From: Allocatelliglobosispora scoriae
GTDB taxonomy: Bacteria > Actinomycetota > Actinomycetes > Mycobacteriales > Micromonosporaceae
NCBI RefSeq assembly: GCF_014204945.1
Contig: NZ_JACHMN010000002.1
Coordinates: forward strand, 2,060,503-2,124,502
Reading direction: 5' to 3'
Length of the DNA stretch: 64,000 nt
The position numbers and the translations under genes were made by a program. Under the pieces are notes generated by a model. That model saw only the letters and a list, made by a program, of their open reading frames with translations, was not told the DNA's origin and made no database searches. Shown one piece after another: positions 23,828 to 47,112 of this stretch; position 1 is the first letter of the stretch, and every line of letters starts with the position of its first letter.

Positions 23828-25870
23828 GTGTACGCCGACAAGGTCTCCCTTTCCGGACTTCTCCACGGACCCAAACAGTTCGTGATCCCGCCATACCAAC
23901 GCGCCTACGTGTGGTCCGAAAGGCAGGCCCGCCAACTGTGGGACGACATCCTTACCGAGGCCAAGCGCCTGGCGAACGGCGAGCGGGCGGGACACTTCCT
24001 CGGCTCACTCGTCCTGGCGCCCAGCCCGTCCTTGGCGCCGGGCGGCATACAGCAATGGCTGGTCGTGGACGGACAGCAGCGTCTCGGCACGCTGATGATC
24101 GCATTGTCAGCGATCCGAGACCATGTGATCCACTCGAACCCGCAATTGGCCGGGAGCATCAACGACAGCTTCCTGATCAGCGCAGATCACAAAGGTGACA
24201 AGCGCCCGAAGCTGCTTGCGACACTCGATGACCGCGCCGCTTTTGCGAGCGTGCTACTCAACCACGACCGCTCACACATACCGAACACAAACAAGATCAT
24301 CCGAGTGTACGAGCTCTTCCGCTCATGGATCAAAGAAGTCGATGAGCAGCCCGAAGGGCAGGAACTCGTCTTCGAGACGCAGGCCATCCAGGACCATCTT
24401 CATCTCGTCCAGATCGTCGCCCACTCCGATGACAACGCCTACCGGATTTTCCAAACCCTCAACAGCACTGGTCTCAAGCTCACCGAGACCGATCTCATGC
24501 GCAACCACCTTTTCATGCGACTGCCACATCGCATCGACGATATTCACCGCGATGTCTGGACGCCGATGCAACAGGCGATCGGGGACGACGGAATCGAGAC
24601 TCTCCTCTGGCTCGACCTGGTGCTACGGGGAAAGGACACCGCAGCACAGTCTGACGTCTTCCGCCTCCAGGTTGAGCGATTTGACGATCTCCTACACGAA
24701 GACCAGGTCGCGCAGGAGATAGTGGAACTCGCTCGCCGGTCGCGCTACCTTCGCCTCATCCTCGATCCAGGTCTCGAACCGGATGCGAACCTGCGGATGC
24801 GGCTGGCCCGCCTGAAGGAATGGAACGCAAAGACCACATATTCCACCACCATGTTCGTCCTCGAACTGCGTGACAGAGGAGAATTAAGCGTCGACGACGC
24901 AGCGAGCGCACTGCTTCTCGTGGAGAGTTTCTGCGTCCGTCGGGCGATCGCCGGAGTGCCGACGACGAACATGGGTCGGATCCTCAATGCGGTTCCGCGC
25001 GAGCTCGCCGGCAGCAAAGACCTGGTCGGAGATCTCCGTGATTACCTCTCGGCTTCCAAGAGGAACTGGCCCGATGACGCACGGCTGGTCGATGCGATTC
25101 AGACCCAACCGTTCTACCTCAACGTCAGAAGTTCGCAGAAGGCATTCGTCCTGCGCCGTTTGGAGGAGGCCTCACGGCCGAAAGAGGTCGTCGACTGGAA
25201 CGGTCCGACCCGGATGACGATCGAGCATGTGTTGCCTCAGTCACTCACGTTGGATTGGCGCCAGAGCCTCGCCGTCGAATCCGAGACGTTCGGCATCGGT
25301 GTCGACGAACTGCACGGCCTCGTCGTGCACACCCTCGGTAATCTGACCCTGAGCGCATACAATCCCAAGCTCTCCAACTCTGCGTTCCCGGAGAAGCGGG
25401 AGATACTGCGCGTCAGCGCGCTCGCCATGAACCTCGAGATTGCCGCCAGCGACACCTGGGATGGGTGGAAGATCTCCCAAAGGGGTCAGCAGCTTCTGGC
25501 TATGGCCATAGCCATCTGGCCGGGGCCGACAGCGCGCCCCGGCCAAACCGCTGATCGCGATTGGAGTCCCCTCTATCAGGCGGTCGCCGCGATCCCGATC
25601 GGGAGGTGGACCACTTTCGGCGACCTTGCCAAGGTGATCGGCAGCCATCCCGTCTCGGTGAAAGCTCACCTGGCGTCCCGACTCGTGGAGAACTCGTGGC
25701 GTGTCCTGTTGAATGACGGAATACCGTCGCCGGATCTGGCCAACGCCGTGCAGGGTGGGCAGCGTCACCGATTGGAGCATGAGGGGATCAGGTTCGGTGC
25801 GAACGGCCAGGCCTCGTCAGATCAGAGGTTGAACGCAGCCGCTATCAAGGACCTGCTCAACCAGGCTTGA
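23828..25870 (+). CDS. GmrSD-like DUF262/DUF1524 nuclease with alkyltransferase-like C-terminal domain
   Basis: 680 aa, GTG start preceded by AGGAGG. The N-terminal DUF262 (GmrS/ParB-like) has IPPYQRAYVW and VDGQQRLGTL. The DUF1524 HNH nuclease region has MTIEHVLPQ with the histidine pair and LGNLTLSAYNPKLSN (about 460-530). The last 100 residues (about 580-680) resemble the DNA-binding domain of O6-alkylguanine methyltransferase: LYQAVAAIPIGRWTTFGDLA and NSWRVLLNDG. The expected PCHR cysteine is replaced, so it is an alkyltransferase-like (ATL) module. The family includes type IV enzymes that cut modified phage DNA. I infer that the ATL domain reads modified bases. Confidence 0.9.
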   Translation: MYADKVSLSGLLHGPKQFVIPPYQRAYVWSERQARQLWDDILTEAKRLANGERAGHFLGSLVLAPSPSLAPGGIQQWLVVDGQQRLGTLMIALSAIRDHVIHSNPQLAGSINDSFLISADHKGDKRPKLLATLDDRAAFASVLLNHDRSHIPNTNKIIRVYELFRSWIKEVDEQPEGQELVFETQAIQDHLHLVQIVAHSDDNAYRIFQTLNSTGLKLTETDLMRNHLFMRLPHRIDDIHRDVWTPMQQAIGDDGIETLLWLDLVLRGKDTAAQSDVFRLQVERFDDLLHEDQVAQEIVELARRSRYLRLILDPGLEPDANLRMRLARLKEWNAKTTYSTTMFVLELRDRGELSVDDAASALLLVESFCVRRAIAGVPTTNMGRILNAVPRELAGSKDLVGDLRDYLSASKRNWPDDARLVDAIQTQPFYLNVRSSQKAFVLRRLEEASRPKEVVDWNGPTRMTIEHVLPQSLTLDWRQSLAVESETFGIGVDELHGLVVHTLGNLTLSAYNPKLSNSAFPEKREILRVSALAMNLEIAASDTWDGWKISQRGQQLLAMAIAIWPGPTARPGQTADRDWSPLYQAVAAIPIGRWTTFGDLAKVIGSHPVSVKAHLASRLVENSWRVLLNDGIPSPDLANAVQGGQRHRLEHEGIRFGANGQASSDQRLNAAAIKDLLNQA

Positions 25871-27681: not shown

Positions 27682-27727
27682 GGTGCTGGTCACGGTGGCC
27701 TTTCTATCAGCCGCCGTGACCAGCACC
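27682..27727. terminator. 18-bp hairpin in the 27293-27761 gap
   Basis: Arms 27682-27699 (GGTGCTGGTCACGGTGGC) and 27710-27727 pair with one G-T mismatch over a 10-base loop. It lies 35 bases past the stop of the minus-strand radical-SAM-like gene, so it is a likely terminator of that operon. The rest of the gap (27293-27681) holds no gene I can support, but must contain the parA promoter. Confidence 0.65.
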
Positions 27728-27761: not shown

Positions 27762-28808
27762 TCACCAGGCCTGGTGGCGTAAGGCATGTTGAAGGACGTA
27801 GCGGCTTTCCACACTCAGCCCGCCGATCCGCACATGGCCGTCCTCAACCAGGTAGTCGCCCTCAAAGCCGTACTCGGCGAGGGCACCATCCAGTTCGGTC
27901 GAGGTGGGTTCCCGGTAGCCGCCAGCGCACCGCAATCGCTGGGCCGCCGGACAGATGTCACAGAGTGTCGGTATGCCGAACTGGTCGTTGTAATCGGCGG
28001 TCCGGTGGGCGAAGGAGACCCCGCAGGAGGTCTTGCGAAACAGCGGCGTGCTGATGCCCGACCTCCGCCAGGCTGCGACGACCCTATCGTCCAGCACAGC
28101 CGGGTCGCCCAAGCTGTCGAGCTGGTGTCCGGTGAAGACGATGGCGTCGGCGAACCGGGCAGCATTGAAGACGAGGCTCATCTGCTCATCCGAGTCGTTC
28201 CAGCCGGGCACGATCGGCCGCCAGTCCAGCACGACACCGGTCCGGCGTTCCCCGTCTGCGGCGGCCCGCTGGAGCGAGGCGAGGACGGCGGCGGGTTCCA
28301 CCCGAGTGTCGGCGAGGCCCGAGTAGCGGAAGAGCAGCGTGACCCTCAGATGTCGCATCGCTCCTAGCTCCGCCAGGTCCTCGGCGGTGACCTCGCCGCC
28401 GGTGGTGATCTGGACGTGGTTGGTCCAGCCTCGCCGGTCGAGGTCGCGGACGACGTGGAGGAGATGCTGCGCCACTCCGGGCTGGAACGGCTCGACCTTG
28501 TCGAGAAGCCGGATCGGCGTCGCGTGAGGTCGGAACGCCTGATGGCTGATGAGCTGGTCAACGGCCTCGCCGGTGGCACAACGCACGTGCGGAGTGCCAG
28601 CACCGTCGATCGGCCACTCGACCATGTGATCGAGGCTCAGCCCCATTTCTCCGTAGCGGAGGATCGGCGCCGTGCGCGGATCGAGATCAACTGCCACCTC
28701 GGGCGGCAGGGTTGGTAGGTCCTGTTGCGGGTCCTCGGTCTGCATGGGCCCAGCGAACGCGATAATAGTGATGCTCAGGAATGTCCCACCGGTGAATTCG
28801 CGGGGCAC
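27762..28808 (-). CDS. Radical-SAM-family protein lacking the cluster-binding cysteines
   Basis: About 348 aa from GTG 28808. The flanking sequence matches an actinobacterial radical SAM family: FAGPMQ, LRYGEMGLSLDH, DWRPIVPGWNDSD, FRKTSCGVSFAH and LCDICPAAQRLRC near the C-terminus. Where the family has its CX3CX2C cluster motif after SLDH.V, this protein reads VEWPIDGAGTPHVRCATGE. The three spaced cysteines are gone and the loop is about 12 residues shorter. A second shortening occurs after VFTGHQ. It is therefore likely catalytically dead as a radical enzyme, a structural or regulatory paralogue, or decaying. Its start follows the flavoprotein stop within 3 bases. Confidence 0.8.
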   Translation of the reverse strand: MPREFTGGTFLSITIIAFAGPMQTEDPQQDLPTLPPEVAVDLDPRTAPILRYGEMGLSLDHMVEWPIDGAGTPHVRCATGEAVDQLISHQAFRPHATPIRLLDKVEPFQPGVAQHLLHVVRDLDRRGWTNHVQITTGGEVTAEDLAELGAMRHLRVTLLFRYSGLADTRVEPAAVLASLQRAAADGERRTGVVLDWRPIVPGWNDSDEQMSLVFNAARFADAIVFTGHQLDSLGDPAVLDDRVVAAWRRSGISTPLFRKTSCGVSFAHRTADYNDQFGIPTLCDICPAAQRLRCAGGYREPTSTELDGALAEYGFEGDYLVEDGHVRIGGLSVESRYVLQHALRHQAW

Positions 28809-28810
28809 CC

Positions 28811-29374
28811 TCAGGGCAAGCGGCGCTCCGCCATCGCCGATGCCGCCAGGAATGCCGCCTCCCAGGGGAAAGCGGTCTGTGCCTCCGGCCCGGTCCCCGG
28901 CGCATGCGGCTCCCATCCCGCACTCCGCCCGGACATGACGTGCACGCCCTCACCCCGCAAGGAGGCCACCGCGCGTGCGAACGGTTCGCGGCTCGCGAAC
29001 GCTGAGTTGGCGAAGGGCACCACCACGGTGGGTACGCCACGACCGATCATCTCCGCCGCCAGCGTCAGTGCATAAGTGTCCGCGATTCCAAGCGACAGCT
29101 TGGCGACGGTGTTGGCCGTCGTGGGAGCGATGATGAGCGCGTCCACGGGCGGGAGTGCCCGACCGCCCTGCTGCGGCTCGGACCAGCGGAAATCACTGCG
29201 GACTCGGCTACCGGTGAGGCGCTCCAGCGCAGTCGTGTCGATGAAGTGCAGGGCTGCTGCTGTCGCCGCCACTGCGGTTGTCCACGAGTGCCGATGCGCG
29301 ACTGCGATCAGCCGATCCAGGTCGGCCGCCGGCCCGGCACCGCAGGCGATGATGAGCAGGTGACCGCTGGTCAC
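28811..29374 (-). CDS. HFCD-family flavoprotein (phosphopantothenoylcysteine decarboxylase-like)
   Basis: 187 aa, GTG start overlapping the regulator stop by 4 bases. The N-terminus LLIIACGAGPAADLDRLI forms a flavodoxin-like strand-loop, and residues about 80-130 contain PPVDALIIAPTTANTVAKLS, the FMN-binding PAT/TAN motif of the HFCD family, followed by GIADTYALTLAAEMIGRGVP. This family includes CoaC, EpiD and Dfp-type oxidative decarboxylases. The active-site histidine and substrate clamp are not clear, so a peptide-cysteine decarboxylase activity is not claimed. It is the middle gene of a three-gene overlapping operon with the XRE-TPR-type regulator and the radical-SAM-like protein. Confidence 0.88.
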   Translation of the reverse strand: MTSGHLLIIACGAGPAADLDRLIAVAHRHSWTTAVAATAAALHFIDTTALERLTGSRVRSDFRWSEPQQGGRALPPVDALIIAPTTANTVAKLSLGIADTYALTLAAEMIGRGVPTVVVPFANSAFASREPFARAVASLRGEGVHVMSGRSAGWEPHAPGTGPEAQTAFPWEAAFLAASAMAERRLP

Positions 29375-30714
29375 AGTGCCATCCCCGCCGCAGCGGCGAA
29401 AGCATCCACCTCGGCACGGATATGACCGCGAGTCCGGGCGGCGAGGTCTGTGACCGTCCGGCGTACGGCGGGCCGGGAACGGATCTCTTCGGGGGCGATG
29501 CGGTCGGCAGTGTGCAGCGCCGAAAGCGCCTGCTCATAACGACCCCACTGCGTGTAAGCCTGTGCCACGTTCGTGAAGAGGCTGACCTTGCGCTCGGCGA
29601 GCGTGACCCGGTCCAGCTCGACCTGACGCGCGAGCGCGATCGCCGTACCGGCGTCTCCTAAGCTCAACGCCACCTCCACCCGGTGGAGCAGGACGTTGGT
29701 CGGGCCGAACCCGGTCCACCTGTCGTTGCCGTCATGACCGAATCGGGCTGCTGCTCGGGAGGCCTCCCCCAGCAACGTGTGGGCGGTGTCGCGATCTTCG
29801 TTTCTCGCCGCGCCGACTGCTCCCATCAGGGCCAGCGCACCGTAGGTGGCCGCAGCGTCACGCGTACCGAGGCCGCTGGACCGATCGAGTGCCTGCGCCG
29901 CACTCTCCACGACCTCGATGGCCCGGAGCGAGTGCTTGTTGCTCATCAACGCATGCGCCATGACCCGAGCGCTGCCCGCCACCGCGATCGGATCACCGCT
30001 GGCCCGGGCGTACCGCACGCTGCGCTCGGCTGCGAGCAGCGCCAAGGGCGGGTCACCTCGTTTCAGCAGTACACTGCCGGTCACGTGATAGGCCTCCGCA
30101 GCCAGGACCCGAACCTCGCGAAGGTCGTCTGCACCGGCCCTGGCCTCGGCGCTGGAGACTGCGGCCAGAAGCGGAGTCAGCAGGCTGACGACTCGCTCGT
30201 AGTGGCATGCCTGATAGCTGACCTTCGCGCTCGCGACCGCCTGTCGCAGCTCGGCCACGGTCCACGGCGTGGCGTCGTCCACCTCGTGCGTCGGCACCAT
30301 CGCGTCGAGCAGGCTGATCACCGACGGTGCCGCCATGGCCTGCGCCATCGCCGTCACCGCAAACGGGAGGAGGTTCCTGCGTCGCACGTCGCCTTCCAGG
30401 TCGAAGGTGCATAGCCCGGTGCGTTCAGTATCTACCAACTTCGGGTCGGCGATGACCGTCGCCTTTGTGCCGCTGGTGTCCGCTGCCAGCAGACGCTCGA
30501 AGCGCTCGGCTACCTCCGCCGATGCGCGGCTGAGGACGGTGTCCATCGCGGCCTGCATGTCCGGTCGGAGGGTGACCTGCGTACCTCGGGTGCTCCACTT
30601 GACCACCGTCCGGCGAGCGGCGCCGACGTGCTCGGAGAAGTCGGTCACGCTCATGCGATGGGCCTTGCGCAGAGCGTTGGCTTCGCGGCCTGTCCAGGTC
30701 GGAACCGTGATCAT
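29371..30714 (-). CDS. XRE-type helix-turn-helix regulator with TPR-like C-terminal region
   Basis: 447 aa. The N-terminal HTH (REANALRKAHRMSVTDFSEH then GAARRTVVKW) resembles XRE regulators. The rest (130-447) is a series of helical hairpins resembling tetratricopeptide repeats (for example EALSALHTADRIAPEEIR near the end, and repeated ALA..A/RxA patterns). Such HTH-TPR proteins are frequent in streptomycetes and often sense a signal peptide or partner. It is the first gene of the operon with the flavoprotein and radical-SAM-like protein, so it may autoregulate that operon. It ends 142 bases from the left end of the integrated element. Confidence 0.85.
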   Translation of the reverse strand: MITVPTWTGREANALRKAHRMSVTDFSEHVGAARRTVVKWSTRGTQVTLRPDMQAAMDTVLSRASAEVAERFERLLAADTSGTKATVIADPKLVDTERTGLCTFDLEGDVRRRNLLPFAVTAMAQAMAAPSVISLLDAMVPTHEVDDATPWTVAELRQAVASAKVSYQACHYERVVSLLTPLLAAVSSAEARAGADDLREVRVLAAEAYHVTGSVLLKRGDPPLALLAAERSVRYARASGDPIAVAGSARVMAHALMSNKHSLRAIEVVESAAQALDRSSGLGTRDAAATYGALALMGAVGAARNEDRDTAHTLLGEASRAAARFGHDGNDRWTGFGPTNVLLHRVEVALSLGDAGTAIALARQVELDRVTLAERKVSLFTNVAQAYTQWGRYEQALSALHTADRIAPEEIRSRPAVRRTVTDLAARTRGHIRAEVDAFAAAAGMAL

Positions 30715-30856: not shown

Positions 30857-30902
30857 CTGGTGGGGCGGGCGGGGCTCGAACCCGCGACCGAGGGATTATG
30901 AG
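30857..30902. repeat. attL: 46-base direct repeat (partial tRNA 3' end)
   Basis: It is identical to 47067-47112. It encodes the 3' half of the tRNA from the anticodon loop through the CCA, on the minus strand, without the 5' half. Bases before (T versus G) and after (G versus T) differ, so the repeat ends are sharp. This marks the chromosome-element junction on the left. Confidence 0.92.
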
Positions 30903-45719: not shown

Positions 45720-46988
45720 CTATTGCCCAGCAGGGCGAGGGCGAGGAGGCATGCGGGCCGCCAGCGTCGCAGCTGCACGCTGGTCAGCCTCCGATCTCCA
45801 TGCGGCATAGACCCGCAATGTTGTGGCTCCTCCGCCGCCATGCCCAAGGCGGCCCGCAACAGTACGGATATCGACGCCGGCTGTGACTAGTTCGGTCGCC
45901 GAGTAGTGCCGAAGGCTGTGCAGCACTGATGAGATGCTCAGCCGGCTAGCCATACGCCCGAACCGCTGCGTTGCCGTATCCGGCACCAACGGCACATCCC
46001 CAACCGGGCCAGTCGAGAACACGAACGCGTTAGCCGGCAGCTCGTAGTCGAGCGCCTGGGCGCGCTCGACGCACCTACCGTGGTGCTCCTCCAGCACCGC
46101 GACAGTCTCGGAGTCGAGCACGATGCGCCGCTGCTGGTGCGTCTTGGTGTCTTTCTCCTTCAGCTCCCCGTCGTCGTCAACGAACAGCGACCGCCGCAGC
46201 ACAACCACGCTGTTATCAAGGTCGAAGTCATCCCACCGCAACGCGCACAGCTCGGCCCGGCGCGCGCCGAGGTTCATCGCGCACCACACGAACGTGCCCC
46301 AGTCCGGGTCCTTCCACGCCTCGTTGACGAGCCGGGCCGCCTCCGCAGCCGTAGGCGGGTGCGGGTCAGGGTGCGGCAGCGGCGGCTTGTCAGCGGCATC
46401 AGCCGGGTTGATGGCCAGCCAATTCCACTTCACCCCGCGCGCCAGGGCGCCGCTGAGAATCCAGTGAATCTGCCGCACCGTCGAGTCAGCCAGCCCACGG
46501 CACTTGTGCGGCCCACATCGCCCATCGCACTCATGGACGGCAGCGGTCCGATGCTGAACGAACCGCTGACCGCCACAACGGTCCCGGCACTTGCGCAGCA
46601 TCGCGTAGAACGACTCCAGCAGTTCCGTGTCGACCTTCGCCACGGGCAGCTTCCCCAAGACCGGCCGCACGTGCTTGTCGAGCTTGATGACGTAGCCCCG
46701 GCGCGTCTGAACGTCGACGTCCAGCACTTCGAGCCAGCGATCGAACAGCTGGTTCATCGTCGCCTTGGTACGCGGATTGCGCTTCTCATCCACCTGCGAC
46801 AGCAGCCGAGTACGAGCCTTCTCGGCGTCACGGGCAGCCGTAGGGCCGGGCGGGATGACCTCCACAAGGTCGTGGCGCTTGCCCGTCAGCGGGTCGATGC
46901 CGGCGTGCACCCGCACGCGCATCGCTCCGCTGGGGAGGGTGTCGATGGCACCTCGTTGCCGCTTGAGCTTGCTGTTGCCCTGCGTCAT
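45720..46988 (-). CDS. Tyrosine recombinase (AICE integrase)
   Basis: 422 aa from ATG 46988; TTG at 47033 is an alternative. The SAM-like core-binding domain is near residues 75-190. A Cys-rich insert (CRDRCGGQRF and CDGRCGPHKCRG) may be zinc binding. Catalytic residues: first Arg in LGARRAELCALRWDD, HSLRHYSATELV (HxxR), GRLGHGGGG with His, and the closing Tyr in TLRVYAAW. It sits 79 bases from the tRNA attachment site and converges on the AAA15/DUF4276 pair. It catalyses integration at the tRNA 3' end. Confidence 0.93.
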   Translation of the reverse strand: MTQGNSKLKRQRGAIDTLPSGAMRVRVHAGIDPLTGKRHDLVEVIPPGPTAARDAEKARTRLLSQVDEKRNPRTKATMNQLFDRWLEVLDVDVQTRRGYVIKLDKHVRPVLGKLPVAKVDTELLESFYAMLRKCRDRCGGQRFVQHRTAAVHECDGRCGPHKCRGLADSTVRQIHWILSGALARGVKWNWLAINPADAADKPPLPHPDPHPPTAAEAARLVNEAWKDPDWGTFVWCAMNLGARRAELCALRWDDFDLDNSVVVLRRSLFVDDDGELKEKDTKTHQQRRIVLDSETVAVLEEHHGRCVERAQALDYELPANAFVFSTGPVGDVPLVPDTATQRFGRMASRLSISSVLHSLRHYSATELVTAGVDIRTVAGRLGHGGGGATTLRVYAAWRSEADQRAAATLAARMPPRPRPAGQ

Positions 46989-47066
46989 GGAGGGAAGTGT
47001 AAACGGGTTCGTGTCATGAACCGTGTCACGCAAGATCGAGAAAGCCTTGATCTGAAAGCAAAACCG

Positions 47067-47112
47067 CTGGTGGGGCGGGCGGGGCTCGAACCCGCGACCG
47101 AGGGATTATGAG
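47067..47112. repeat. attR: 46-base direct repeat inside the tRNA gene
   Basis: Identical to 30857-30902. It covers the 3' half of the intact tRNA, from the anticodon loop to just past CCA. This copy restores the full tRNA because the element integrated on its 3' side. Confidence 0.92.

Follow-up and report, generated by a model that had tools for sequence, protein, structure and literature searches.

A predicted radical-SAM-derived pseudoenzyme variant with a retained C-terminal four-cysteine site in Allocatelliglobosispora scoriae

The protein encoded at 27762..28808 of the window (the whole 64,000-nucleotide stretch of DNA that was analyzed) has lost the catalytic loop of its radical-SAM parent family and keeps a second cysteine site near its C-terminus, and we rather favor the reading that it is a radical-SAM-derived pseudoenzyme variant with a retained C-terminal metal site, as predicted here. 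Comparison with its homologues firmly marks it as a true descendant of a radical-SAM family, with common descent over the full length. The features on which the argument draws, all on the minus strand, are as follows.

27682..27727, minus: terminator-like hairpin with 18-nt arms (inverted repeat; RNA fold −39.2 kcal/mol, z = −7.2)
27762..28808, minus: cluster-less radical-SAM-derived protein (open frame; ~50% identity to active homologues)
27921..28043, minus: C-terminal four-cysteine site C241, C262, C265, C273 in FRKTSCGV..CDICPAAQRLRC (cysteines invariant in 51/51 aligned sequences)
28104..28127, minus: second loss, after VFTG, with 22 residues deleted including the near-invariant RRK (alignment)
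28593..28619, minus: replaced catalytic loop EWPIDGAGT, which is GCPLDCGYCVRHFWGNF.. in relatives (alignments; other frames without the motif)
28811..29374, minus: HFCD-type flavoprotein (PF02441, 54.5 bits, cut-off 22.7)
29371..30714, minus: NsdA-like HTH/TPR regulator (NF053720, 53.2 bits, below the cut-off of 75)

The assignment to the family rests on full-length similarity rather than on domain models, as no Pfam or NCBIfam model, PF04055 (radical SAM) included, scores above its cut-off against the protein, and its active relatives reach an E-value of 0.0017 at best with PF04055. Since identity to homologues is ~50% over 320 residues and one half alone gives a tblastn E-value of 1e-57, the homology is not a matter of chance; tblastn in related genomes returned full-length homologues at about 44–50% identity. 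The first-pass annotation had described a radical-SAM-family protein without its cluster motif in an intact reading frame, and both parts of that description hold: the frame 28916..27762 (−) is open throughout, with no stops and no frameshifts. The start had been placed at the GTG at 28808; the ATG at 28745 is better matched by homology and gives a protein of 327 residues. A search for a second, active copy in the same genome found none, and defence-system models match neither the gene nor its two neighbors.

The catalytic loop was compared in two alignments, one with 26 homologues taken from related genomes and a later one with 79 from a GTDB-wide scan. The relatives carry the loop given above, with C-x3-C-x2-C in the context GCPLDCGYCVRHF in the GTDB-wide homologues once copies that are truncated at contig ends or frameshifted are set aside; at that place the cluster-less protein reads VEWPIDGAGTPHVRC, with VEWPIDGAGT 12 residues shorter and all three cluster cysteines gone, much as had been proposed from the letters alone. 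Thus neither the catalytic CX3CX2C of a functional radical-SAM enzyme nor an equivalent set of cysteines is found. The possibility raised earlier that a frameshift hides the motif was rejected because the other two frames across the loop hold no cysteine motif. The flanking motifs GLSLDH, FRKTSCGV and CDICP...C are all present.

The damage extends well beyond the loop. The loss that had been noticed following VFTGHQ is real, and the alignments show deletions beyond those of the first-pass annotation: one residue in NKATDP, three residues near residue 153 and a C-terminal tail of ~45 residues that holds the near-invariant HGR. Of the 112 near-invariant family positions the protein retains 70 and has lost 42; a second alignment gives 61 of 100 kept, against 97–100 in eight of the nine other relatives examined (the ninth, L080, was mis-trimmed and lies outside that count). 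The lost positions comprise the arginine, lysine and serine of YRKSG, the three cluster cysteines with YCVRH, N-ATD of NKATDP, the arginine of ITR, T157, the tyrosine of YWRP (Y194), the RRK loop and the C-terminal PH..HGR tail; those kept include GLSL, WRP..G.ND, A.VFTG, RKTSCGV, DYN, CDICP..Q...C and RY..QH. The residues lost from NKATDP, ITR, T157, Y194 and RRK, motifs that a functional radical-SAM enzyme has at the barrel mouth, would form the SAM-binding side, as judged from strand ends in the structural model. A clustering of losses at the barrel mouth (20/38, against 9/34 elsewhere, p = 0.03) is not significant without the cluster loop (p = 0.40) and is not relied on.

The C-terminal cysteines fared differently, with all four kept. 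Their pattern suggests that they bind an auxiliary cluster or metal, auxiliary because intact relatives carry both sites, and in the cluster-less protein a [4Fe-4S] cluster or a metal is probably still bound there. The segment 27937–28047 is also the only part of the gene with DNA matches to plasmids, being 75–79% identical to Alphaproteobacterial and Nocardia plasmid genes.

It is also important to consider whether the fold could persist. The AlphaFold2 model reaches a pLDDT of 86.8 and a pTM of 0.88 (pLDDT 91.3 for the active relative L057), and Foldseek returns pyruvate formate-lyase activating enzyme as the top match for both models, the cluster-less one being a partial TIM barrel like that enzyme (E 6e-5), with radical-SAM activating enzymes as its best PDB matches; the model was built from an alignment of active relatives, which may overstate foldedness, so that it supports the fold and is no proof of folding. 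Pyruvate formate-lyase activating enzyme and spore photoproduct lyase are among the nearest solved folds to the model and to the active relative, at ~13–15% identity, and unlike the cluster-less protein they carry the catalytic cluster and SAM.

The parent family, recognized by CPLDCxYCVRH and a C-terminal SC..CDICP..C and exemplified by Micromonospora sp. CPCC 205371 (L057) and Phytohabitans suffuscus (L058), was recovered at 116 loci in a GTDB-wide scan with one genome per species, of which 80 were kept, from Actinobacteria, Proteobacteria, Bacteroidota, Nitrospirota and Acidobacteriota. It shares with the cluster-less protein ~50% identity over the full length, the barrel and the C-terminal four-cysteine site; what sets the cluster-less protein apart is the absence of the CX3CX2C loop, the SAM-side motifs, the RRK loop and the HGR tail, and its gene lacks the usual neighbors of the family. 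These are thymidylate-synthase-like (TS-like, PF00303), NDK-like (PF00334) and DEDD exonuclease (PF00929) genes, joined in some groups by a P-loop kinase and an aldo/keto reductase. The combination of TS-like, NDK-like, radical SAM and DEDD exonuclease genes recurs at L057, L058, L061, L096, L114 and other loci; no description of this gene group was found. The core of radical SAM and exonuclease spans several phyla, and members of the family also occur on plasmids and IMG/VR contigs. Beside the cluster-less gene there is no exonuclease, TS-like or NDK-like gene; elsewhere in the source genome, single-protein searches found no relative of the TS-like partner (E 0.12 at best), and only generic weak matches for the DEDD exonuclease.

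In the maximum-likelihood tree the protein groups with Micromonosporaceae and Pseudofrankia homologues (support 72%), inside the active Micromonosporaceae clade. Its terminal branch measures 1.05 substitutions per site; no other branch is as long, the next reaching 0.59, and it exceeds the median of 0.09 by a factor of ~12. The nested position together with this branch means that the loss is derived, with fast evolution of the protein. No cluster-less close relative was found among 355 Micromonosporaceae-type relative genomes, the order and class samples, the GTDB-wide scan, or viral contigs, plasmids and phages; an initial genome scan with the single cluster-less sequence as query also gave no matches, and no intermediate between intact and cluster-less forms appeared in these searches. 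Among the other intact copies just one has a damaged motif: L073, from Actinoallomurus iriomotensis, reads CPLDYGYC with one cysteine lost; it is 96% identical to the intact paralogue L074 of the same genome, an apparently recent second loss of one cluster cysteine. Both L073 and L109 were missed or misread by a simple pattern; once aligned, L109 has an intact motif.

Selection was assessed with an F3x4 codon model (own implementation) on the cluster-less gene and ten close relatives, the dN/dS check that the first-pass annotation had called for. On the cluster-less branch dN/dS is 0.14, against 0.05 elsewhere, and dN/dS = 1 is rejected (2ΔlnL 44); with dS near 2 these values are rough, and they are averages over a branch ending in a single sequence, in which time before and after the loss is merged and cannot be separated. 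Splitting the gene at residue 218, the N-terminal part is relaxed (0.23 against a background of 0.06, p = 4e-4), and the C-terminal part cannot be told apart from its background (0.085 against 0.034, p = 0.32), with dN/dS = 1 rejected (p = 6e-6). A joint fit rejects equal dN/dS in the two parts (2ΔlnL 6.3); an equal proportional relaxation of both is not rejected (2ΔlnL 1.9). The four internal indels are all multiples of three, which would occur by chance in ~1% of cases. Together, the codon data and the in-frame indels favor a protein still under selection, with its continuation after the loss unproven.

The most serious competitor, which we hold to be possible but clearly less probable than a pseudoenzyme variant, is a decaying relic: an enzyme left without a use by the loss of its partner genes, whose frame is still open by chance, owing to high G+C and to decay that set in recently. 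The partner genes are indeed absent, the branch is very long, and catalytic and tail residues are gone. Several other family copies are broken by split frames or stops, namely L095/L186 (Pseudofrankia), L189/L199, L193, G295 and G636, so decay is not rare in the family. High G+C makes stop-free drift less rare, with simulated neutral decay of comparable size remaining stop-free in about 2–25% of runs depending on base composition, and a model of an enzyme followed by a late uniform neutral phase fits only mildly worse (2ΔlnL 4.6). Against decay stand the in-frame indels and the lack of any stop, the branch dN/dS with the C-terminal part at background rate, and the four cysteines kept along with RKTSCGV and CDICP. 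The earlier argument for selection on a non-radical function therefore stands in part: neutrality is rejected over the branch, but a recent onset of decay is undatable from one sequence. Likewise, the earlier caution that relatives might be decaying without selection applies to other family members, which do break.

Under the pseudoenzyme reading, the ancestor would have been a catalytically active member of the Micromonosporaceae branch of the family, which usually has TS-like, NDK-like and DEDD exonuclease genes beside it. The present copy stands without that module and behind a regulator–flavoprotein pair. Gone from it are the cluster loop, the RRK and HGR segments and the majority of the SAM-site residues, yet its frame is open and the protein is fast-evolving and, as a branch average, apparently constrained. 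Such a protein would fold as a radical-SAM-type barrel with no SAM-cleaving cluster and form no 5'-deoxyadenosyl radical, its four-cysteine site would hold a [4Fe-4S] cluster or metal, and it might conceivably serve a structural, redox or sensing role in partnership with another protein, the neighboring flavoprotein being one candidate.

We regard as doubtful the more specific proposal that the auxiliary cluster site was taken over, after the catalytic site was deleted, as a redox or sensing centre working with that flavoprotein. The HFCD identity of the neighbor, named in the first-pass annotation, is secure. The regulator had been called HTH/XRE; its pairing with the flavoprotein is real. 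Its score falls short for NsdA and it is best termed NsdA-like only. The genes for the regulator and the flavoprotein share 4 bp, the GTG start of the cluster-less gene lies 2 nt after the flavoprotein stop, and the hairpin begins ~35 nt past the stop of the cluster-less gene, an arrangement consistent with one transcription unit ending at the hairpin. Among the 29 Micromonosporaceae loci that hold the nearest relatives of the flavoprotein, the regulator mostly lies ahead of the flavoprotein gene, and none has a radical-SAM-like third gene. The third gene is therefore a local addition to what is a module of its own, and the intact operon, earlier taken as an argument for function, says little on that point; a functional link by way of the pair was dropped as a candidate on the same 29 loci.

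Continued catalysis, with the remaining four cysteines as the sole cluster of a non-canonical radical-SAM-like site, is improbable. The C-terminal site is invariant, and ThiC and Dph1-Dph2 are precedents for non-canonical architectures (PMC4389238, PMC11048331); however, the SAM-side residues of NKATDP, ITR, YWRP and RRK disappeared together with the cysteines, and the presence of both sites in intact relatives makes the C-terminal one auxiliary. That an assembly or sequencing error conceals an intact motif is scarcely credible, for although the cluster-less form is seen in one genome only, 36 nt are missing in frame, the motif is absent from the other frames, dozens of independent near-invariant positions have changed and the genome is in only 4 contigs.

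For the pseudoenzyme variant, the heme chaperones HemW and CgdH2 offer a parallel as radical-SAM-superfamily proteins with a non-radical job (PMC10320005), but C. jejuni Cj0992c and Cj0363c keep CX3CX2CXC, unlike the cluster-less protein, for which no counterpart of the heme link is known. The open-access literature, as far as it was covered, yielded no paper on a radical-SAM pseudoenzyme of this kind. If the protein is selected, the auxiliary cluster site of this superfamily can outlive the catalytic one. The case also points to a widespread, uncharacterized radical-SAM family linked to nucleotide genes; for that parent family only, ThmA of the 4'-thiothymidine cluster (PMC12691670), a radical-SAM enzyme beside nucleotide genes, is a lead, the two being likened by gene context, with an AbmG-like kinase and a nucleoside triphosphatase next to ThmA where the family has a TS-like protein and an exonuclease.

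Immediately next to the gene group is one end of a 16-kb integrated element, bounded by a 46-bp exact direct repeat of a tRNA-Met 3' end (30857–30902 and 47067–47112). This element carries a phage-type integrase (45720–47033) and adjoins the regulator gene directly upstream. On the other side, 23828–25870 encodes a GmrSD-type (type IV restriction) protein beside ParA-like and small genes, and its C-terminus has a weak match to PF01035 (alkylguanine-transferase DNA-binding domain; 19.4 bits, below cut-off).
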